Shown here in pieces: positions 4,591 through 61,097 of a stretch of 64,000 nt of DNA. A model generated the notes under the pieces. That model was not told the DNA's origin and did not search any database. It saw only the letters and a list, made by a program, of their open reading frames with translations. Both the position numbers and the translations under genes were made by a program. The stretch is from Prostheceraeus crozeri (taxonomy: Eukaryota > Platyhelminthes > Polycladida > Euryleptidae). The stretch covers positions 310,001 to 374,000 of the forward strand of contig CAJQUW010007075.1 in NCBI GenBank assembly GCA_907163375.1, in the 5' to 3' direction. Position 1 is the stretch's first letter, and the number at the start of each line of letters is the position of its first letter.

Positions 4591-4957
4591 TCATTCATGT
4601 TGAATACGTTATAATAGGAGATCACAGTCACTGAAATATTCTAAATTGTATGCGAATGAAGGCTATAATTGTAGCAAATAAGGAGAGATATGAAGAGTAG
4701 AATCTGGAAAAATGGAAAATACTTCAACCATAGAGTATGACTTTAACAACTTTCAATTAGTCTTTTAATTAGTCTCAAAATTTCCAGGATTTGCAGGTTT
4801 TCCAGGGTAAAATTTCATTTTCCAGGAGTTTTCCAGGATAAAATTCATTTTCCAGGTGTTTTCCAGGTTTTCCAGGGGGCGCGGGTACCCTGCTAACACC
4901 TATGAACAGTAGGTGAACAGTAGGGCATTCCAATAATTGTTTGCTTATACACATGAT

Positions 4958-5075
4958 GATGATTTGATTTAACGTCACTGCTTCCCCCTAGCTTGGACGG
5001 TGCTGACACAGTCAGATTTTTCTGGAGCGTTGTGGTACTTTTAGTTCGGATGCCCATCCGGTCGACTTCCAATGA
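4958..5075 (-). mobile_element. SINE (main family), 3' half of a copy split by a retroelement
   Basis: Reverse-strand copy of the tRNA-derived SINE found throughout the window. This part holds the 3' half: body motif GGATGGGCATCCGAACT, then GCACCGTCCAAG and AGTGACGTTAAA. The 5' half resumes at 7789. The 14-base sequence TCGACTTCCAATGA is present on both sides of the interruption, so it is the target duplication of the inserted element. Confidence 0.85.
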
Positions 5076-5157
5076 TCCAAAATACCAGTCATCGAGTTAT
5101 AAATATGTCAAAAAAAGACGGAGAGTAATTCGAAGAGAACTCGAATATATTGACGTT

Positions 5158-5197
5158 ATTCACAAATTTTCGGCCGAAGCCTTCATCAGGTGAAATT
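5158..5197 (-). ncRNA. Hammerhead-ribozyme-like motif in the PLE 3' end
   Basis: Read on the minus strand: UUUCAC, then the core CUGAUGA, one extra A, a perfect stem GGC-UUCG-GCC, then GAA, AAUU, U and GUGAA. This is the hammerhead layout: stem I (UUCAC with GUGAA), CUGAUGA, stem II, GAA, stem III and the cleavage nucleotide U. Stem III would be the palindrome AAUU with no loop, which could only form between two molecules. Type I minimal hammerheads are known in Penelope-like elements. The extra A before stem II and the tiny stem III leave activity uncertain. Confidence 0.6.
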
Positions 5198-5526
5198 AAC
5201 AGTGAAATTGTGATGTAGATGGACGCAATGACAGTGGACACGTAGTGGTAATCACAAACGTCACATGATCTTGAAGCAAGTGCTTCAAGTGCTTTTCATA
5301 ACATTAAAACTGCAGCAAGAAGATGTGGAACATTAAATAAACCAAATCTAACAGCTAAAAACAGAAAATGAGATACAGTAACTGACCAAGAATAAAACAG
5401 CATATGTACAAACAGAATAATTACAGTATAAGAAAGAGAAACAGGTTACTACAACCAAACAGTAAGTAACACAATTTGATTATGACCAGAGTAATTTTCA
5501 AAATTAAAATAAAAAGAAGGGCTACT

Positions 5527-5778
5527 TTACACGTCTAATTCCCTACCTATGCATCCATTCATTAATAGTCGATGATTTCTTCTAATATTTAGAGCTTCCA
5601 TAGAGCGACGGACATTAGGATGCTTCACATTTCTATCCAGCAATTTCCATTTCAGGGGTAAATTACTAGACCTAGGGTTAACATCATGACTAGCTAGATG
5701 ACGAAAACTCGCAGAATTTATATCAAATAAATGTTCTTTGAAACGCGTAGCAAAAGTCCTACAAGTTTCACCGATATA
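5527..5778 (-). pseudogene. PLE GIY-YIG endonuclease, C-terminal half
   Basis: Continuation of the frame broken at 7503. It reads IGETCRTFATRFKEHL, then a conserved helix region containing RRSMEALNIRR, and ends RELDV with TAA at 5527-5529. The arginine after IGETCRT and the ...FKEHL block are typical of GIY-YIG nucleases. It has no frameshift of its own. If the mariner and one TA are left out, the two halves read through without a stop, so this part was intact when the mariner landed. Confidence 0.78.
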
Positions 5779-7502
5779 CAGGGTGGCGCACGTAAACCGC
5801 CGGATTTTAAACTTTTATTACTCCTCAAATATTCATCCGATCGTCATGAAATTTCGACTCATACTAGTTTGGAGTATAGGATTTATGATGATTATACCTG
5901 TTGTACTGAGAATTGTCAGAAAATTCTGATTCTATTGACCGAATGACATGTACTCATTTTGTTGACATCGAAAATCTAGATCAAGTTAATTAACTTACCA
6001 TGAATCGTATTCTGCACAACGAATTGTGCGCAGTCTTGAAGTGAATATTGTTCAGTTACTTCCATGTCTTATAGAATACCATTCGACGATTAAATCACTA
6101 TCTGAAAAGAATCGAACATAGAAGAATGGATGATTATTAGGTTGCAGAACAAGCAAAATGCGCGGCTTGGTACAAATGGCTCAAGAGTCCAGTGGAGGTA
6201 CAAATGCTTTATCATTCGGAGTATGGCAAGAACGCGAGAGCACCGGATGCCCGTACCATAAAGCGGTGGCACACAAACCTGTTGACCAGTGGTAGTGTGG
6301 TGACTGTCAAGCGGGACCGGTCATCTTCTGAACGAACGGAGCAGAATGTGGAACGAGTTGTGCAGCACTTCGAGGAGGACCAAAACACATCTACCCGTCG
6401 TGCATCTAATGCACTTCAAGTGAGTCGCCGCACTATCCAGCGCATCCTTCATGACTATGGATGGCATCCGTACAAGGTCCAGGTGGTGCAGCGATTACGC
6501 GAAGAAGATCTGGAAAACCGAATGAAGTTCGCAGAACAAGAGCTACAGCGCATCCAAGCCAACCCGAGCCATTTAGTGGAACTAACCTGGTCCGATGAAG
6601 CTCACTTCCATCTGGATGGTGGTATGAATCGCCACAATTGTCGTTATTGGGCCAACCAGAACCCTCACTGGATCAAGCAAGAGTCTATGCACTCTCCACG
6701 CACCACCGTCTGGGCGGCAATCATCCAATCAGGTATCTACGGACAAGGATCAACAAGGATCGGTATCTCAAGATGCTACAGGAGGAATTTTGGCCAGCGG
6801 TGCAGTCGGACAGAAGAGGCAGGAGCATCACATTCATGCAGGATGGTGCACCTCCACACTGGGGACTTCCTGTGCGTGAGTGGTTGAACAAGAAGATGCC
6901 TAACAGATGGATGGGACGTGGATCTCCTAACATGCCCTGGCCACCGCGTTCACCTGACCTGACGCCTTGCGATTTCTTCTTGTGGGGTTTTGTCAAGTCC
7001 AAGGTTTACCATACACGGCCAACATCCATGCAAGACCTGAAGGACCGCATCATACAAGCATTTCAAGAAGTGACAACTGAGATGTGTCGAGAAACTTCTC
7101 TGGCCTACCAAAAGCGACTCGAATCCGTTCTCGAAAATGGAGGAGGACACGTTGAAGTTCGATGACTACTAACACTTTTTTCTAATGCTTTTCATTTAAT
7201 AAATGTTTTCTATGACATTTACCTTAATTCGTTTTGGTCATTATTGATAAAGACGTGGGGGAAATAAAGGGAAAAGTTTATCATTAAATTTTACATGTTA
7301 TGATACATTGTTGGTATGTCAATTTTACTACATGTCATTCGGTCAATAGAATCAGAATTTTCTGACAATTCTCAGTACAACAGGTATAATCATCATAAAT
7401 CCTATACTCCAAACTAGTATGAGTCGAAATTTCATGACAATCGGATGAATTTTTGAGGAGTAATAAAAGTTTAAAATCCGGCGGTTTACGTGCGCCACCC
7501 TG
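5779..7502 (+). mobile_element. Tc1/mariner-like (IS630-type) transposon, nearly complete
   Basis: A 1724-bp element flanked by the TA target duplication (5777-5778 and 7503-7504). Its terminal inverted repeats are unusually long: 174 bp (5779-5952 and 7329-7502), starting CAGGGTGGCGCACGTAAACC. I count only about two differences between the arms, which points to a recent insertion. It carries one transposase gene with a stop and a frameshift. It sits inside the GIY-YIG motif of a Penelope-like element. Confidence 0.93.
6126..7165 (+). pseudogene. Mariner/IS630-type transposase, broken by one stop and one frameshift
   Basis: A transposase of about 345 residues. An ATG at 6126 is followed by TAG at 6138. 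The frame then continues KCAAWYKW into the helix-turn-helix region (YGKNARAPDARTIKRWH, then SNALQVSRRTIQRIL). The first catalytic motif is WSDEAHFHLDG. A frameshift near 6745-6760 moves the frame, which continues INKDRYLKMLQEEFWP, then FMQDGAPPHW (second Asp) and PRSPDLTPCDFFLWG (third Asp). There are 37 or 42 residues between the second and third Asp, depending on which Asp is catalytic. Stop at 7163-7165. The DDD residues are all present, but this copy should not make a working protein. Confidence 0.9.
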
Positions 7503-7750
7503 TACATCTGATCACAAATAGTACGAGTACAAGTAATTTCATAAACAATAAATTTAGTATAACAAATCGTTGGCTTGCTGGCATATGTACACGAAATACA
7601 ATCTGGAGAACATACACGATGTGCCCTTAATGGCTGCAAAGACTGAGACAAAGGTAAATTATTTCTAAAAACAATTTGCATGTTAGACTCAAGACCATTG
7701 TTAATTTCACCTGATGAAGGCTTCGACCGAAAATTTGTGAATAACGTCAA
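7503..7750 (-). pseudogene. PLE GIY-YIG endonuclease, N-terminal half, split by mariner
   Basis: Minus-strand frame with SPDCISCTYAS (Cys pair), then KFIVYEITCTRTICDQMY. This is the zinc-finger-like lead and the first half of a GIY-YIG endonuclease as found at the C terminus of Penelope-like elements. The frame is cut at the tyrosine of the second catalytic dipeptide by the mariner at 5779-7502. The other half continues in the same frame at 5778. Upstream of this piece the element runs straight into its terminal inverted repeat, so the reverse transcriptase is missing. Confidence 0.8.
7703..7742 (+). ncRNA. Second hammerhead-like motif, inverted copy
   Basis: Same motif as at 5158-5197 but on the plus strand, in the inverted terminal repeat at the other end of the PLE. 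Stem II here is GGC-UUCG-ACC, with one broken pair, so it looks weaker than the other copy. It is antisense to the PLE coding strand. Confidence 0.5.
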
Positions 7751-7788
7751 TATATTCGAGTTCTCTTCGCATTACTCTCCGTCTTTTT

Positions 7789-7876
7789 TCGACTTCCAAT
7801 GACACTTTCGGGGCTCGACCTCAGAACCGAAAGATCGATAGGCCAAGCACTTAACACTGTACCACGGAGACCACTC
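7789..7876 (-). mobile_element. SINE (main family), 5' half of the split copy
   Basis: Continues the SINE interrupted at 5075. It holds the tRNA-like 5' part: reverse strand GTGGTCTCCGTGGTACAGTG (A box), GGCCTATCGATCTTTCGGTT and the B-box-like GGTCGAGCCCC. Confidence 0.85.
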
Positions 7877-8143
7877 AGTGGAAACAATATCATTTCAAAT
7901 GGATACCAAAGTGTCAGAAAGCTCCGCCTGGTACTGATCATGTTGGAAATTTCTACTGATAAAACTTTTCAACTAACAGTTGCCAATATAATTCTAGGAC
8001 AAAACAGTCATCAATAATAATGCATTTGTAAATCAGCTCTATCCCATCAAACTCTTTCTGGTGAATCCTAAACTGTCACCGATAACAAATAATTAGAAAA
8101 AGAAACAATAAGATGATAAGAATAAGCAGTAATTATAACTTAC

Positions 8144-8362
8144 TTTTCCAGTCTTGAAAGCCGGCACCAGCTCATCAAAACCAACTTGCTCAAGCCAGAA
8201 TTGAACATCCTCTTCCGTCCATAAAGGAACTTGTGGACTAAGTTTGTAAGGGACCTTTTCACCGATGCTTTCTAGAGCACTTGCTGCCAATCGTGATGAT
8301 ATTGCATTTGGCAAGCTTGCAACGAATTTCAAAACTTCTAATGCTCCTATTTCGTCGAACAT
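8144..8362 (-). CDS. SARM1: SARM1-like gene, third visible exon (ARM end and start of SAM 1)
   Basis: Exon of 219 bases (73 codons), phase 0, with acceptor TTCTTGCAG and donor GTAAGT. The peptide starts MFDEIGALEVLKFVAS (last ARM helix, following KTA of the previous exon). It then has ASALESIGEKVP, the linker, and the SAM opening PLWTEEDVQFWLEQVGF followed by DELVPAFKTGK. SARM1 proteins carry an 'SWKEAEVQTWLQQIGF' type SAM 1 start here. The exon stops inside SAM 1, so at least the rest of SAM 1, SAM 2 and the catalytic TIR domain must follow at lower coordinates. I saw no convincing next exon between 1 and 8143, and with introns of about 20 kb it is probably outside the window. Confidence 0.88.
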
Positions 8363-8483
8363 CTGCAAGAATTCGGATGCAGTAAACATGAATTGCACAT
8401 GCATAAAAAATGTACCGGGAGCGTTCACTTTGACACTCATATATGAGTTAAGCAGAAAAGTAGAATCGCTTCATAGTAAGACT

Positions 8484-28374: not shown

Positions 28375-29149
28375 AGACCAATTGTCAATTGTGTTTATGT
28401 GCTGCAAACTTCAACCAAATCGGTTTACAGTACTCCTAACCACCCTGTGAGTGGCTTACATTGCTTCTAATCAGCTGATGAGAGTCAAAATGTTCGTTGT
28501 TCACCCCTACCAAGACCAGTCTTCTTTGGCTTCATGGGGGATGGGGAGCCTCTTTATATGGTTTGTAAACTGTGGTCGCGATCAATAACTCAAAAATCCA
28601 CCCGAGTTTTCGCACTTTTCTAAGTCTTCCCCGGACTCCATAGCGCTTCCACCTTCCTTCACCTTTTTAATAATCTTTTCATGACTGTAATGTTTTCTAC
28701 ATGTTTTTTCATACCGCTACGTTTCGCTATCTTTCCCAAAATTACAATTTAAAGACTCAGACATTTCAAATAAAAAATATTTATGAAAGAAACGCCTACA
28801 CAATAACGAAATGCTTAATCTCTTACTCCCGATTTTCTGAATATCACTATTTTAACACATGTTCATAGAGCTGACAACGGATCACATGAGTGACCAGTGA
28901 GCCGGGTGACACGGACAGCCTATGACCCGTGACCCACATTTATAGATGTTGAATTTATATCTAATTCAATCATGAGTTAGTGTATGTTTAACAGCTCATC
29001 ATCAGTCTAGCATGCATGCATATCAAGAAAAAGATTAGAGTGAAAGAACCCTAAAAATAAATGCAATTGTTCATGAAAAGATGATGCAAGGTTTTACAAG
29101 AATGCAGAACAGAATCTGATAATAATACACGTAGCCTACAATTAACATG
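28375..29149. other. No recognised gene
   Basis: SARM1 intron sequence between the SINE and the minisatellite. No coding or repeat signal stands out. Confidence 0.4.
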
Positions 29150-31946
29150 AAGGTCGATCAGTCTCATGTTGAGAAGGACGATCAGTCTCATGCTGAGAAG
29201 GTCGATCATTCTCATGCTGAGAAGGCCGATCATTCTCATACTGAGAAGGCCGATCAGTCTCATGCTGAGAAGGCCGATCAGTCTCATGTAAAAAGGTCGA
29301 TCAGTCTCATGCTGAGACGGTCGATCAGTCTCATGTTGAGAAGGTCGATCAGTCTCATGCTGAGAAGGCCGATCAGTCTCATGCTGAGAAGGTCGATCAG
29401 TCTCATGCTGAGAAGGCCGATCAGTCTCATGCTGAGACGGTCGATCAGTCTCATGCTGAGAAGGCCGATCAGTCTCATGCTGAGAAGGTCGATCAGTCTC
29501 ATGCTGAGAAGGCCGATCAGTCTCATGCTGAGAAGGTCGATCAGTCTCATGCTGAGAAGGTCGATCAGTCTCATGCTGAGAAGGTCGATCAGTCTCATGC
29601 TGAGAAGGTCGATCAGTCTCATGCTGAGAAGGTCGATCAGTCTCATGCTGAGAAGGCCGATCAGTCTCATGCTGAGAAGGCCGATCAGTCTCATGTTGAG
29701 AAGGCCGATCAGTCTCATGCTGAGAAGGTCGATCAGTCTCATGCTGAGAAGGTCGATCAGTCTCATGCTGAGAAGGTCGATCAGTCTCATGCTGAGAAGG
29801 TCGATCAGTCTCATGCTGAGAAGGTCGATCAGTCTCATGCTGAGACGGTCGATCAGTCTCATGCTGAGAAGGGCCGATCAGTCTCATGCTGAGAAGGTCG
29901 ATCAGTCTCATGCTGACGATCAGTCTCATGCTGAGAAGGTCGATCAGTCTCATGTTGAGAAGGTCGATCAGTCTCATGCTGAGACGGTCGATCAGTCTCA
30001 TGCTGAGAAGGTCGATCAGTATCATACTGAGAAGGCCGATCAGTCTCATGCTGAGAAGGTGGATCAGTCTCATGCTGAGAAGGCCGATCAGTCTCATGCT
30101 GAGAAGGCCGATCAGTCTCATGCTGAGAAGGTCGATCAGTCTCATGCTGAGAAGGTCGATCAGTCTCATGTTGAGGTCGATCAGTCTCATGCTGAGACGG
30201 TCGATCAGTCTCATGCTGAGACGGTCGATCAGTCTCATGCTGAGAAGGTCGATCAGTCTCATGCTGAGAAGGTCGATCAGTCTCATGCTGAGAAGGTCGA
30301 TCAGTCTCATGCTGAGAAGGGCGATCAGTCTCATGATGAGAAGGTGAATCAGTCTCATGCTGAGAAGGCCGATCAGTCTCATGCTGAGAAGGTCGATCAG
30401 TCTCATGCTGATACCGGCGATCAGTCTCATGTAAAAAAGGTCGACTAGATGTTGAGAAGGTCGATCAGTCTCATGCTGAGACGGTCGATCAGTCTCATGT
30501 TGAGAAGGTCGATCAGTCTCATGCTGAGAAGGCCGATCAGTCTCATGCTGAGAAGGTCGATCAGTCTCATGCTGAGAAGGCCGATCAGTCTCATGTTGAG
30601 AAGGTGGATCAGTCTCATGTTGAGAAGGCCGATCAGTCTCATGCTGAGACGGTCGATCAGTCTCATGCTGAGACGGTCGATCAGTCTCATGCTGAGACGG
30701 TCGATCAGTATCATGCTGAGAAGGCCGATCAGTCTCATGCTGAGAAGGTCGATCAGTCTCATGCTGAGAAGGTCGATCAGTCTCATGCTGAGACGGTCGA
30801 TCAGTCTCATGCTTAGACGGTCGATCAGTCTCATGCTGAGAAGGCTGATCCGTCTCATGCTGAGAAGGTGGATCAGTCTCATGCTGAGAAGGCCGATCAG
30901 TCTCATGCTGAGAAGGCCGATCAGTCCCATGCTGAGAAGGTCGATCAGTCTCATGTTGAGAAGGTCGATCAGTCTCATGTTGAGAAGGTCGATCAGTCTC
31001 ATGCTGAGAAGGTCGATCAGTCTCATGTTGAGAAGGCCGATCAGTCTCATGATGAGAAGGTGGATCAGTCTCATGATGAGAAGGTCGATCAGTCTCATGC
31101 TGAGACGGTCGATCATTCTCATGCTGAGAAGGCCGATCATTCTCATGCTGAGAAGGCCGATCAGTCCCATGCTGAGAAGGTCGATCAGCCCCATGCTGAG
31201 ACGGTCGATCAGTCTCATGCTGAGACGGTCGATCAGTATCATGCTGAGAAGGTCGATCAGTCTCATGCTGAGAAGGTCGATCAGTCTCATGCTGAGACGG
31301 TCGATCAGTCTCATGCTGAGAAGGTCGATCAGTCTCATGTTGAGAAGGCCGATCAGTCTCATGCTGAGAAGGCCGATCATTCTCATGCTGAGAAGGTCGA
31401 TCAGTCTCATGTTGAGAAGGCCGATCAGTCTCATGCTGAGACGGTCGATCAGTCTCATGCTGAGACGGTCGATCAGCATCATGCTGAGAAGGCCGATCAG
31501 TCTCATGCTGAGACGGTCGATCAGTCTCATGCTGAGACGGTCGATCAGTCTCATGCTGAGATGGTCGATCAGTATCATGCTGAGAAGGGCCGAACAGTTC
31601 TCATGATGAGAAGGGATCAGTCTTCCTGCTGAGAAGGTCGATCAGTCCCATGCTGAGAAGGTCGATCAGTCTCATGCTGAGAAGGTCGATCAGTCTCATG
31701 CTGAGACGGTCGATCAGTCTCATGCTGAGAAGGTCGATCAGTCTCATGCTGAGAAGGTCGATCAGTCTCATGCTGAGACGGTCGATCAGTCTCATGCAGA
31801 GAAAGCCGATCCGTCTCATGCTGAGAAGGCCGATCAGTCTCATGCTGAGAAGGTCGATCAGTCTCATGCTGAGAAGGTCGATCAGTCTCATGTTGAGAAG
31901 GTGGATCAATCTCATGTTAAAAAGGTCGATCAGTCTAATATTGAGG
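29150..31946. repeat. 24-bp minisatellite, about 116 copies (2.8 kb)
   Basis: The monomer is GTCGATCAGTCTCATGCTGAGAAG with a few recurring variants: GTC/GCC/GTG before GAT, ATGCTGAG/ATGTTGAG, and AGAAGG/AGACGG. Each unit contains TCTCA-TGC-TGAGA, a 5-bp stem with a 3-base loop, and the palindrome GATC. Since 24 is divisible by three, stops are rare and long frames open on both strands (for example repeats of DQSHAEKV on plus and MRLIDLLS on minus). Length changes near 29874, 29915, 30172, 30440 and 31595-31630 break any one frame, so it is unlikely to be coding. It lies in the intron between the first two visible SARM1 exons, 1 kb from the nearer one. Confidence 0.97.
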
Positions 31947-51475: not shown

Positions 51476-52322
51476 CTACACCTTTTTCCATTCCAATTAA
51501 AAGTTGTTCCGTTCTATTTAAAACCTGTTCCATTCAATTTCAAACATTCAGTTAAGAACGAGCTCTATTATACTAAATGTAACTAAATACCATATTGCTA
51601 ATCGATTATTCGTTGCTTAGCGATGCCATCAGTTTTCTTATAGCTTCTTAGAGTACCTGGTTTAACACCACGATTTTCCATCATTTCACTCATGTCAGTG
51701 TCTGTGTCAGATGCACCGGAGCTTATTGACGTTGACATTGCATGGGAAGTCATGATTTCGTCTTCGTATACTTCGAGAAACTTTACCAAATGAAATAGAC
51801 TAACTAACTCAGCACTTGATATTATTTGCTGCTATTCATACCAAACATACGGAGCGAGCGGGTATCTTAGCATAAAAACGTGTGGATCACGCACTCAAAA
51901 AATGTGTGCATGTATGATGCATTGGATGATGGCGCGCTAAACCGATCTGAATATTCTTACTTTTGCTATTGTTCGATTTCTAAGAATGACTCATTTTATC
52001 CGATAATGTGATGATGTAGTTATCGAATGTGGCTGTCAACGCTCCGGTACGACAAGACTTGCATTACGGTGTTACATTGGTGAATTCATGAACACTTTTA
52101 AAATAAAATGTTTCATTGTTTAATGTTTTTTTATGATCCTCTTATTAGCAGGTATTATTATCCATATTATTTTATTCATCAGATTCCATGTTGTGCATAA
52201 GTATATCATGAAATATACCATTGTCCATATGTCATTTTGTTTTGTAGTAGAATAGAGCTCGTTCTTAACTGAATGTTTAAATTGAACGGAGCAACTTTTA
52301 ATTTGAATGGAAAGAGGTGTAG
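51476..52322. mobile_element. Foldback element beside the SARM1 exon
   Basis: Arms 51476-51574 and 52246-52322 are inverted repeats (CTACACC...TTCCATTC, AATTAAAAGTTG, CATTCAGTTAAGAACGAGCT), with a 15-20 bp gap in one arm. The centre of about 670 bp includes a minus-strand open frame (51598-51846). The right arm ends 81 bases from the SARM1 exon donor at 52403. An old transposon is the simplest reading. Confidence 0.75.
51598..51846 (-). CDS. Hypothetical C-terminal exon inside the foldback element
   Basis: Open for about 82 codons with no ATG near its upper end. The product is acidic and Ser/Thr-rich (VYEDEIMTSHAMSTS, SGASDTDTDMSEMMENRG), then basic (KPGTLRSYKKTDGIAKQR), ending IID with TAG. 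The mix looks like real coding sequence. It may be the last exon of a transposase or a host exon captured between the foldback arms. I do not recognise the family. It is not part of known SARM1 domain order. Confidence 0.35.
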
Positions 52323-52403
52323 AACGGACAAGACCATTGAAGTCACAGACATCCCTAAAGTATCTTGACCATCAAACCAGACTCTGTAGCTCGTACAACT
52401 TAC

Positions 52404-52748
52404 CTGAAGATGTGATCGTTCACAACTGGCAAACTGACGCGGTGTATGCTGTTGCACAAAAGGCAGCACCAACTTCAAGGTCCCTGACTGTTCCACAGCT
52501 TGAGATAGCTCTCTGTTGGTCGAGAGCACGACTATAGCCAAGCAGGCGTAATACTGAATGATGTCATCGCGAGAAAATGCCAGTGGAAAGAGCCAGTCAG
52601 CCACACGTTGATGAATCATTTCAGTCTGGTTCTCCGTACCACCGTATAAAGAAAGATTTGCCAGAGCGATCGCTGCATGACGAAGAGTTTCCTTGTCCAG
52701 GGATCGACAAGCAAAAATAACCGACTTCAGTCCTCCAAAGTAGATCAT
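52404..52748 (-). CDS. SARM1: SARM1-like gene, ARM-repeat exon (upstream-most exon seen)
   Basis: Exon of 345 bases (115 codons). The acceptor reads TTTTTCAG just above 52748 and the donor is GTAAGT below 52404. The peptide is helical ARM-repeat sequence. Segments such as LRHAAIALANLSLYGG, ADWLFPLAFS and EQSGTLKLVLPFV align in order with the ARM domain of SARM1, the NAD+ hydrolase that drives axon degeneration and also acts in innate immune signalling. The ARM domain is the autoinhibitory, NAD+/NMN-sensing part. The exon ends SHLQ in phase 0 and the next exon opens GRSKGW, matching the family order. The first codon is ATG, but the acceptor directly before it and the missing N-terminal ARM repeats show this is an internal exon, not the start. 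A foldback element begins about 80 bases into the downstream intron. Identity rests on recalled family similarity. Confidence 0.88.
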
Positions 52749-52926
52749 CTGAAAAAGGATTCACAATATAATCCAGCGATACAGCTGATGTCGAATTCTT
52801 TCTTACTATCAACTAATTTATCAGTGCATGTTCTTTACAATTTATGTAAACACTCTAGAGAAAAGCACAGTGAAACAATTCAAAGTTCTGAAAGGAACGT
52901 AAATGTGTATAGAAAATCTACCGAAT

Positions 52927-58183: not shown

Positions 58184-60269
58184 AAACCAGCATGAAGGAA
58201 TTGAACAGAACTTCAACATGAACGTTACAGGAGTACAAAACATGAAACTGATTCATAACAAAACATAACGGAAACAATCAAATTTAACAGCATTAACTCT
58301 GCAACATTAGGACGAATGTAGGTGTATTGTGGCCAGTTAACACAGAAATGTGCTATGTCGACTTCATTGTCTTTGACTACACTATCTTTCCCCCATTCAC
58401 CCATGACATTTCCAGATTTATTTTTAAAATCACAATCCTTGTTAGATGAGATCACTGCAAATTAAAAATCTGACTGAGAAGGGCGGCTCGCCGAAGTATA
58501 TTTTAGAAAAGAAAAACAAATTATTATCTGTGAGTCGAAAGATAAAATTAATTTTTTTAAATTAAAATGAAGAAATTAGACCCATTTAGAATATTCGCCA
58601 GGGGACCAGTGGGGTGCAAGCGTTGAAAGTTCTATTCTACGAAACATGAAGAAAGGCGACTCCTCCTGCCTACAGTTATATATTCAGGGATGAGAATTTC
58701 CATAGATCCGACGAAATCCGCGCGGCCTCATTATGTAGACTTAATTTATCCAAGATGAGCCTCAATTTGAGGCTGTCAAAATCTGAGCTTTCGGTTGGAG
58801 GCCTGTTAGCACCCTATTCTAATCCACGAATATAGTTTGATATAGTCATAATGAAAAGCTACACGGGAACTTCAAAAAATCTAGCACACGGTTTGATATC
58901 ATGCTAAGCGACTATATTTATCAGGTCTCTGTGTTTACATAAACAAATGGTTCCCAATTTTTCTTGAAGCCCTTTAAGAACAAATTTTTGAAAATACAGT
59001 ATTTCATGTACAGGCTGCATGCGATCCATTCAAGTTTCAAAAGATCTTAAACATAGCTACTTCTTAGGTCGTTCCAAGACCGACATTTCATGATCCAGAC
59101 TAGCAATATCACTTCCATGAAGTTTCAGCTGTGGAGATTTTTCTTGAAACCTTTTTGCCACAGTTATTTATCAATGCATTCGAACTCCTCCTATCCCAAA
59201 ACTTTGTACCAAATATTTATTACCCGAGTCTTAGTAAATTAATAGATGTCTATCCCGCGTACACTGTGCTATTCTTCATTTTTACTGAAATCTACATCTA
59301 TACATGTTGATGCAGCAAAAACATATTTCAACAACATATACCTAACTAATAGTGAGTTTATAAATTTAAGCATTCAATTCATTGATATGCAAACAGACTT
59401 AAATCAAATGCATGAAATTGAACAATGACTCATCAACATCTTCCTAAATTTCTGTTTCGTTATGAACGACCATAGAATTTGATATTTTATGCACTCATGC
59501 GCTCTTGCATGACGTTTATTGATACTTATAAATTCTTATTTTGTATAATAAGAACTAAAAATTTATCAACAATGGTTAAAAATGTACCTTAAAACATCAT
59601 AAAACAGTGACGGTTACATATAAGCGGTAAGGTTGGCTTACACATGTGGTTGTACAGATATAAAGGGTTATCTATATTTAGGTCTAACCTCTAACCATGA
59701 CCGTGGTCTAACAGAGCAATACTCCGCGGTGAATATCCGTTGCCAAATGACAATTCCAGTCCTCCTTGTAAAGCGTCATCTTAAAAAATCACTGGCGAGT
59801 AGCTAAAGTAGCTAAAAACCCACATAGAAGCACTGCACAGATGCAGCTCAAATTTGTGCAAGGGTTTCTTGATTTCAAATTTCGAATTTTATCTAAATAA
59901 TTTTAAAAGATCGCAGCTAGCTCATGTTTGTTCCAGTTGGCCATAATTAGCCACAATTTTTCTTTGAATGCTTGTGTGATGATAGAAATGGCTGTACAAA
60001 TTCATCCATTGAGTCAGAGTCGCTGGCTCAGTGAGAACTTCAGTGCAACACAAAGGGTGGGTTTCTGCGGCATCTGATTTTGCAGGTTAACGTTGTTTAA
60101 ATGCTAGAATGACGTGGTTGACTTCACATATGAGTTTCTACGTTTGTTTTACGGACGACAACGTGATCGAGATTTTCGTCAAAATTTAGACAAGGTCTCC
60201 CACCCTGTTTTAAGCTGTAGTTAGGGTTATTGACTTGATTGGTTGGCAACTTAGGAAAATTCTCGTCAT
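58184..60269. other. No recognised gene
   Basis: AT-rich sequence up to the Harbinger transposase. No terminal inverted repeat that clearly marks the Harbinger left end was found. Confidence 0.4.
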
Positions 60270-61097
60270 TTGTACTTCACTTTCACGTCTGCTGTCGCTG
60301 TGAATGTGATGGATTCATCCGATGATTACTACGAAACGTACGCCGAACAACTTGCAAGACAACACATTTTTCGAAGCTTGCGCGATCATTTAAATCCAGT
60401 CTCAAAATTCAGTGATCGAAATTTCCGTTTCCGATTCCGAATGGATAAAGAACAATTTCTTCAGTTGCGACAAATGCTTTCTTCTAGAAAAACTTTGACA
60501 AATCCCTTAACGGATTTATTAGTGGCCTTGGATTGTTACGCTACTGGGTCCTACCAAATGTGTGTCGGCGATCATTATGGACTTCATAAAAGTACGGTGT
60601 GTAGAATATTACAGGGAATAAGCCGAGATATTGCAAGCTTGCGATCACAATTTGTATTCTTTCCTAAAGACGACGAAAAAATGGCGATCAGCGAGGGATT
60701 CAGAAAGCTGTCTAAGATGAATAACATAATCGATGCGATCGACTGCACTCATGTTAAAATTCAATCACCGGGTGGCCGAAATGAAACTGCATTTGTAAAT
60801 CGCAAAGGATATTATTCATTAAATGTTCAGGTTGTTGGCGATACCGAATATCGCATTCGCAACATTGTTGCTCGCTGGCCAGGTGCGACACATGACTCTA
60901 AAATCTTCAATGAGTTGTCCTTAAAATCAAAACTGGAAAATGGATCTATCTCAGGAATTTTACTGGGAGGCGGAGGATATGCTGCCAAGACATATATGTT
61001 GACTCCTGTAACGAATCCATCCTCACACGAAGAAAAGCAGTACAATTTTTTTCACAGCGTAGCTAGAAATGTGATTGAACGGTTATTCGGTATTTGA
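60270..61097 (+). pseudogene. PIF/Harbinger (HARBI1-like) transposase, broken near the C terminus
   Basis: The open frame has 275 codons. The start may be ATG 60270 or the ATG at 60309 (MDSSDDYYETYAEQ). In order: FSDRNFRFRFRMDKEQFLQL, a helix-turn-helix-like CVGDHYGLHKSTVCRILQGI, IDAIDCTHVKIQSPGG (first Asp), GYYSLNVQVV, ARWPGATHDSKIF (Asp), LLGGGGYAAKTYMLTP and SVARNVIERLFG (Glu). In the family the GGGGY segment is normally GDSGY, so a conserved Asp is lost. The frame then hits TGA at 61095, where Trp is expected (FGIW), followed by a frameshift and a second-frame continuation VPSIMEPPQTPLREM. It cannot be a working transposase. Confidence 0.9.

Follow-up and report, generated by a model that had tools for sequence, protein, structure and literature searches.

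We found three mobile elements nested within one another at about positions 4968-7874 of a 64,000-nucleotide stretch of the genome of Prostheceraeus crozeri (called here the window): a SINE on the minus strand holds a Penelope-like element (PLE), whose endonuclease is also on the minus strand, and the PLE in turn holds a Tc1/mariner-superfamily transposon. The nest probably arose by three separate insertions, with the PLE layer laid down in a single event of target-primed reverse transcription at both target ends. The nest itself is ordinary genome history. The PLE layer consists of two arms arranged head to head, and a 31-nt tail was present at exactly one outer end in all 22 two-armed insertions of this family that we resolved, with none carrying two tails or no tail.

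Three nested insertions and their order

A preliminary description of this DNA had read the region as a three-level nest. The nest is real, and the window PLE additionally holds a 98-nt inverted second arm that the description lacked (Table 1). Its two target duplications were found as described, namely the 14-bp SINE sequence TCGACTTCCAATGA, identical on both sides of the PLE, and the dinucleotide TA on both sides of the transposon within the PLE. TCGACTTCCAATGA is the sole directly repeated 14-mer within positions 4901-8000, with a chance of about 8e-9 for one given pair. The outermost 5 bases of the tail-less PLE arm overlap this duplication.

Table 1. Positions of the nested elements and their parts in the window.
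Feature	Position	Strand	Remark
SINE, tail-side part, includes first copy of 14-bp target	4968..5075	-	aligned with 14 other copies; left boundary approximate
SINE, tRNA-like head part, includes second copy of 14-bp target	7789..7874	-	cross-target pattern in 12/14 loci
PLE target duplication, left copy	5062..5075	.	exact match to 7789-7802
PLE target duplication, right copy	7789..7802	.	exact match to 5062-5075
PLE tailed arm, 3' part: 3' half of GIY-YIG frame (5530-5776), 3' UTR, tail	5076..5776	-	
31-nt PLE tail, putatively the RNA between two reverse transcription start sites	5076..5106	-	
5' part of PLE tailed arm, with endonuclease frame (first half); truncated at 5' end and lacking reverse transcriptase	7503..7699	-	
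PLE tail-less second arm, opposite orientation	7696..7793	+	98 nt, 96% complementary to 5107-5204
Hammerhead-like motif of tailed arm (CTGATGA..GAAA)	5155..5200	-	
Hammerhead-like motif of tail-less arm	7700..7745	+	
Tc1/mariner-superfamily transposon, transposase frame broken by indel	5779..7502	+	1,724 bp
Left 174-bp terminal inverted repeat	5779..5952	+	
Right 174-bp terminal inverted repeat	7329..7502	-	2 mismatches vs left arm
TA target duplication, left	5777..5778	.	
TA target duplication, right	7503..7504	.	

The proposed order of events, SINE, then PLE, then transposon, was borne out by a separate duplication for each layer together with unfilled paralogous sites for the PLE and for the transposon. 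Elsewhere in this 2.05-Gb genome, SINE loci are intact across the PLE target, a 30-nt pattern being matched in 12 of 14 other loci, while the remaining two (L051 and L058) deviate at the target by single-base indels. At L057 the aligned SINE copy is deleted beside the target, and the pattern matches come from other copies in that locus. The transposon target is unfilled in PLE copies at 21 fetched loci, which correspond to 15 places once pieces that overlap, or arms belonging to a single insertion, are merged. At one SINE locus (L053) the pattern across the PLE target matched 13 times, as in a tandem array.

Of the four junctions, two were searched genome-wide, and neither recurred beside other flanks, as it would have if the nest had moved as a unit. 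At up to 3 mismatches, the 26-nt left junction of SINE and PLE matched once, at this locus, and the transposon/PLE right junction (25 nt) had one exact match and three further places with 2-3 mismatches. Two of these near matches were inspected and are chance-level PLE or transposon stretches of at most 32 nt; the third, on C13621, has 3 mismatches. Faults of assembly are possible, because the assembly holds uncollapsed duplicates, L003 and L006 being 99.1% alike across 4.75 kb. Set against the uniqueness of both junctions, the separate duplications of every layer and the empty sites among paralogues, however, a nest copied or moved as a unit, or created by the assembly, is scarcely credible. 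The L003 and L006 contigs share the same transposon insertion, and apparently are uncollapsed alleles or recent duplicates.

The SINE is short and repeated (3,246 first-look candidates in the genome), with a mean identity of 87% to 14 other copies; its divergence was about 13% both for the left part against 14 others and for the right part against 13. The left piece of the window PLE showed 3.4-5.0% substitutions against ten others, and the transposon a pairwise divergence of 2.8-3.5% from seven others, a set in which L002 and L005 were cut with extra flank and L003 and L006 represent one duplicated locus. These divergences agree with the nesting but alone do not separate the PLE from the transposon in age; the nesting is the better evidence. 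The SINE may be of the tRNA-derived kind, since it has what looks like a tRNA-like head, in which two stretches, recognised by eye only, are A- and B-box-like.

The transposon has the ends CAGGG...CCCTG, and we assigned it to the Tc1/mariner superfamily on its TA duplication, its terminal inverted repeats and a transposase with a helix-turn-helix (HTH) part and a D,D,D/E catalytic part. The HTH part matched DUF4817 (E=8.1e-8, above the cut-off) and HTH_Tnp_Tc3_2 (E=7.9e-7, just below it); the catalytic part had no Pfam match, and its aspartates were identified by eye. The indel that breaks the transposase frame in the window is absent from the seven other copies compared. The preliminary description had suggested estimating the age of the insertion from its two 174-bp arms. 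These cannot date it, because the arms differ at 0-6 sites across the seven copies measured (L004 gave no value, and L003 and L006 amount to a single duplicated locus).

The spacing between the second and third aspartates is 42 residues, if the third is taken as that of SPDLTPCD. The transposon was therefore not placed in mariner proper (DD34D), where 34 residues are expected, nor in the rosa family (DD41D), where a spacing of 41 residues and terminal repeats of about 30 bp are expected. It resembles the rosa DD41D and LTIR elements of aphids, as these are described in PMC5490172, in its termini (compared by eye, ..GGGTG....ACGCCGGATTTRAA), its TA target and its three aspartates with a long second spacing. 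It differs from them in the terminal repeats (174 bp, compared to about 27-32 bp in rosa and about 460 bp in LTIR) and in that spacing, which is 40-41 residues in rosa and LTIR (PMC5490172).

The interrupted PLE and its relatives

The preliminary description had placed the transposon exactly in the catalytic tyrosine codon of a GIY-YIG frame. We identified the split codon as the tyrosine of YIG, because other PLE copies show it uninterrupted, reading GATCAGATGTATATCGG (..DQMYIGET..). This tyrosine is catalytic in another PLE, as the Y17A mutant indicates (PMC11167929). The window PLE is itself 5'-truncated and lacks a reverse transcriptase domain, and therefore the transposon did not break a complete gene.

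In Pfam searches only the endonuclease was seen in the window PLE, the first half giving no match and the second half E=0.042. Domains were clearer in the relatives: RVT_1 in C10126 (E=1.7e-7, above the cut-off), GIY-YIG in C3127 (E=1.3e-4, at the cut-off) with RVT_1 in the same frame (E=0.0052), and GIY-YIG in C9159 (E=4.2e-4, below the cut-off). A search of PDB sequences with one PLE protein gave no match at E<=1. Because RVT_1 and GIY-YIG are both encoded among relatives of the window copy, we class the element as a PLE, a group described as a third class of eukaryotic retroelements (PMC11167929). PLEs are characterised by a reverse transcriptase followed by a GIY-YIG endonuclease, which the relatives have, and by an inverted pseudo-LTR bearing at one end a tail of some 30-40 nt, which is likewise present here as the 31-nt tail.

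Both arms of the window PLE carry a hammerhead-like motif, CTGATGA..GAAA with a possible flanking helix, and a loose pattern for it was matched by 28 arms. The motif gave no Rfam match at E<=5, and we take it to have one extra base after CTGATGA relative to the canonical core. In L039 (C3127), a 6-bp insertion, TA-CATG-TA, lies exactly at the TA targeted by the window transposon, in both arms. It is possibly an excision footprint that was copied by the PLE, and from its sequence a 6-bp tandem duplication would fit equally. Six additional bases in the window PLE at 7515-7540 (minus strand; TGTACTCGTACTATT vs TGTACTATT in the other listed copies) again form TA-4 bases-TA; L032 differs otherwise.

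Two-armed insertions and the single tail

The head-to-head build of the window PLE recurs across the genome, as pairs of plus and minus matches on one contig with both 3' ends outward, and the stretch common to both arms can be as short as about 26 nt or as long as 1,844 nt. The 22 resolved insertions comprise 15 from a first search and 7 from a second, the best 40 of 579-590 candidates being scored in each. Because the tail was part of the query in the second search, insertions lacking it altogether were at a disadvantage there. Three copies that share their flanks, C9159 and a pair on C5242, were entered as a single insertion, and the count leaves aside C2744, C41, C4661 and nine relatives that are more distant, at 73-76% identity.

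Tail scores were 17-31 at the tailed end and 5-11 at the other, with a threshold of 17 that C10126 reached exactly; when each left-end stretch was shuffled 100 times, the highest score was 14. In the raw alignments, one outer end begins at element position 1-15 (at 1-4 in 20 of 22) and the opposite end at 23-56 (at 27-37 in 18 of 22). The outlying second-end starts were accounted for by a match entering the duplication (23) and by ends cut back or decayed (49 and 56). Were the start chosen independently for each arm, a single tail in all 22 would have a probability of 2.4e-7 at equal use of the two starts, and of 5.8e-13 if the starts were used as often as they are in the single-armed copies.

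A direct target duplication flanks the arm pair in 20 of the 22 insertions. With one mismatch allowed, 14 of the first 15 have direct repeats of 11-17 bp, and C2632 has none. In a control of 200 shuffles for each of these 14 repeats, none scored as high for 10, one did for three, and nine did for C13885. Six of the later seven have repeats of 11-15 bp and C12689 has one of only 7 bp (no shuffle control).

We then compared the arms with each other. In all seven insertions with 369-648 positions common to both arms, the arms differ from each other by 0-1.9%, and the nearest other insertion compared differs by at least 1.1-2.8%; when six long-armed insertions were compared separately, the arm-arm difference was 0.4-1.6%. 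C3127 has a private 6-bp insertion that its two arms share and that the rest of the genome lacks. Because the two arms are nearest to each other in 7/7, the long-armed insertions carry a built-in clock. The 14 short-armed insertions (27-121 shared positions) had arms no closer mutually than to other insertions as a group, with a difference below the mean in 7 of 14; the arms of C130 differ by 16%, and those of the window copy at 3 of 93 positions, the mean to other insertions also being 3.2%. C10292 had too few shared positions and was excluded. A common template for both arms is thus shown in the long-armed insertions only, and the short-armed result either speaks against it or is without power.

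These comparisons bear on whether the two arms are independent PLE insertions, or one insertion altered by local inversion or recombination. PLE copies are numerous (590 first-look candidates), and the behaviour of the short-armed pairs would agree with such an origin. It is nevertheless very improbable, given the direct duplication around the pair in 20/22, the mutual closeness of the arms in the seven long-armed insertions and the tail at a single end throughout.

Twelve further copies appear single-armed, 10 tailed and 2 tail-less, several with a poorly defined far end or duplication. No partner arms were found in the stretches flanking six of them (L044-L049). Seemingly single-armed copies may hide tiny second arms. 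At L079 (C1441, outside the count of 22), CATTTTGGA stands between a tail-less arm and the duplication and resembles a tailed arm reduced to a 9-nt stub. Short arms repeatedly end at element positions 123-136, several at 124 (L066-L077, on C7920, C6886, C12689, C9027, C4846, C13518, C9949 and others; also window 7696-7793), as if running off an RNA 5' end just upstream of the hammerhead-like motif.

Arm lengths, self-priming and two-sided priming

Self-priming on an antisense template has been proposed for head-to-head Penelope elements of bdelloids (PMC3846280). One PLE strand would fold back and be copied, yielding head-to-head arms. The build itself agrees with this, as do arms of about equal reach (within 45 nt) in 8 of 22 insertions (C9159, C10766, C1300, C7920, C6886, C12689, C9129 and C13518), two of which, C1300 and C13518, have nearly palindromic centres. 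In the other 14, however, the element positions at which the arms meet lie over 45 nt from each other. The longer arm carries the tail in 5 of 22 (the window copy, C3127, C10126, C11642 and C3325), and the shorter arm does so in 9 of 22 (C130, C10292, C2632, C3709, C955, C5550, C13885, C8122 and C12302). A copied shorter arm cannot gain a tail absent from its longer template; in these nine, therefore, the shorter arm cannot be a copy of the longer, which argues against self-priming. Self-priming is thus contradicted as a general rule and is an unlikely origin of the arms overall, and a minority of cases could have arisen this way.

Priming from both target ends accommodates these features. An old SINE was in place first, followed by the Penelope-like retroelement and then by the cut-and-paste Tc1/mariner-superfamily transposon; for the PLE event we infer the biochemical steps, their order and the involvement of a single enzyme dimer as follows. 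The PLE endonuclease would cut both target strands a dozen or so bases apart, and both target ends would prime reverse transcription on PLE RNA. An outer start site on the RNA would give the arm with the 31-nt tail, and an inner one would give the tail-less arm. Truncation would end each cDNA at a point of its own, and the pair would then be joined head to head at a junction needing scarcely any homology or none; the target duplication would result from filling of the gaps, and one enzyme dimer could perform both sides. Among 15 inner junctions aligned (C2744 included), 7 showed an overlap of 0-3 bp and 7 had 4-32 nt matching neither arm; for the fifteenth, C10126, the reference copy used was too short.

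According to PMC11167929 (2024), the purified PLE of an anole cuts both strands, extends them and starts in vitro at two RNA sites that bound the tail, and that account leaves the later steps open. It saw no difference in start site between the strands in vitro, which counts against the model proposed here. We lean, with some reserve, towards Penelope integration as a paired reaction with a fixed division of labour, in which both ends prime and, within one insertion, each of the two RNA start sites, about 31 nt apart, is used once and neither is used twice. If this is true, the inverted pseudo-LTR with its single tail would be the footprint of coordinated two-sided target-primed reverse transcription and not of self-priming.

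The elements described here share much with Penelope/Poseidon-type PLEs, Pen2a of Adineta vaga (PMC3846280) and Poseidon of Anolis (PMC11167929), which by these accounts likewise have a reverse transcriptase with a C-terminal GIY-YIG domain, an inverted pseudo-LTR, a 31-bp tail at one inverted end, a short target duplication and possibly a hammerhead-like motif. They differ in the range of the inverted arms, about 26 nt to 1,844 nt here, and in that the one-tail rule was here counted (22/22). Since PMC3846280 describes the tail as an optional feature of one of the inverted pLTRs, the pattern itself was already known; the titles and abstract openings that came up in literature searches on the subject yielded no statement of a strict rule. 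The count bears on an open question, the route of PLE integration and the reason for head-to-head copies, and makes this published mechanistic question testable.

Four other features of the window were seen. A frame at 8093-8470 on the minus strand is SAM-domain-like, below the cut-off, and one at 52206-52760, also on the minus strand, appears armadillo-like by eye. Together they remind us of a SARM1-type gene, in or beside which the nest would presumably lie. A 280-aa open frame at 60255-61097 resembles, we assume, a Harbinger-type transposase. Positions 29051-31600 hold a long tandem array with several frames open on both strands (PSQHETDR-type repeat).
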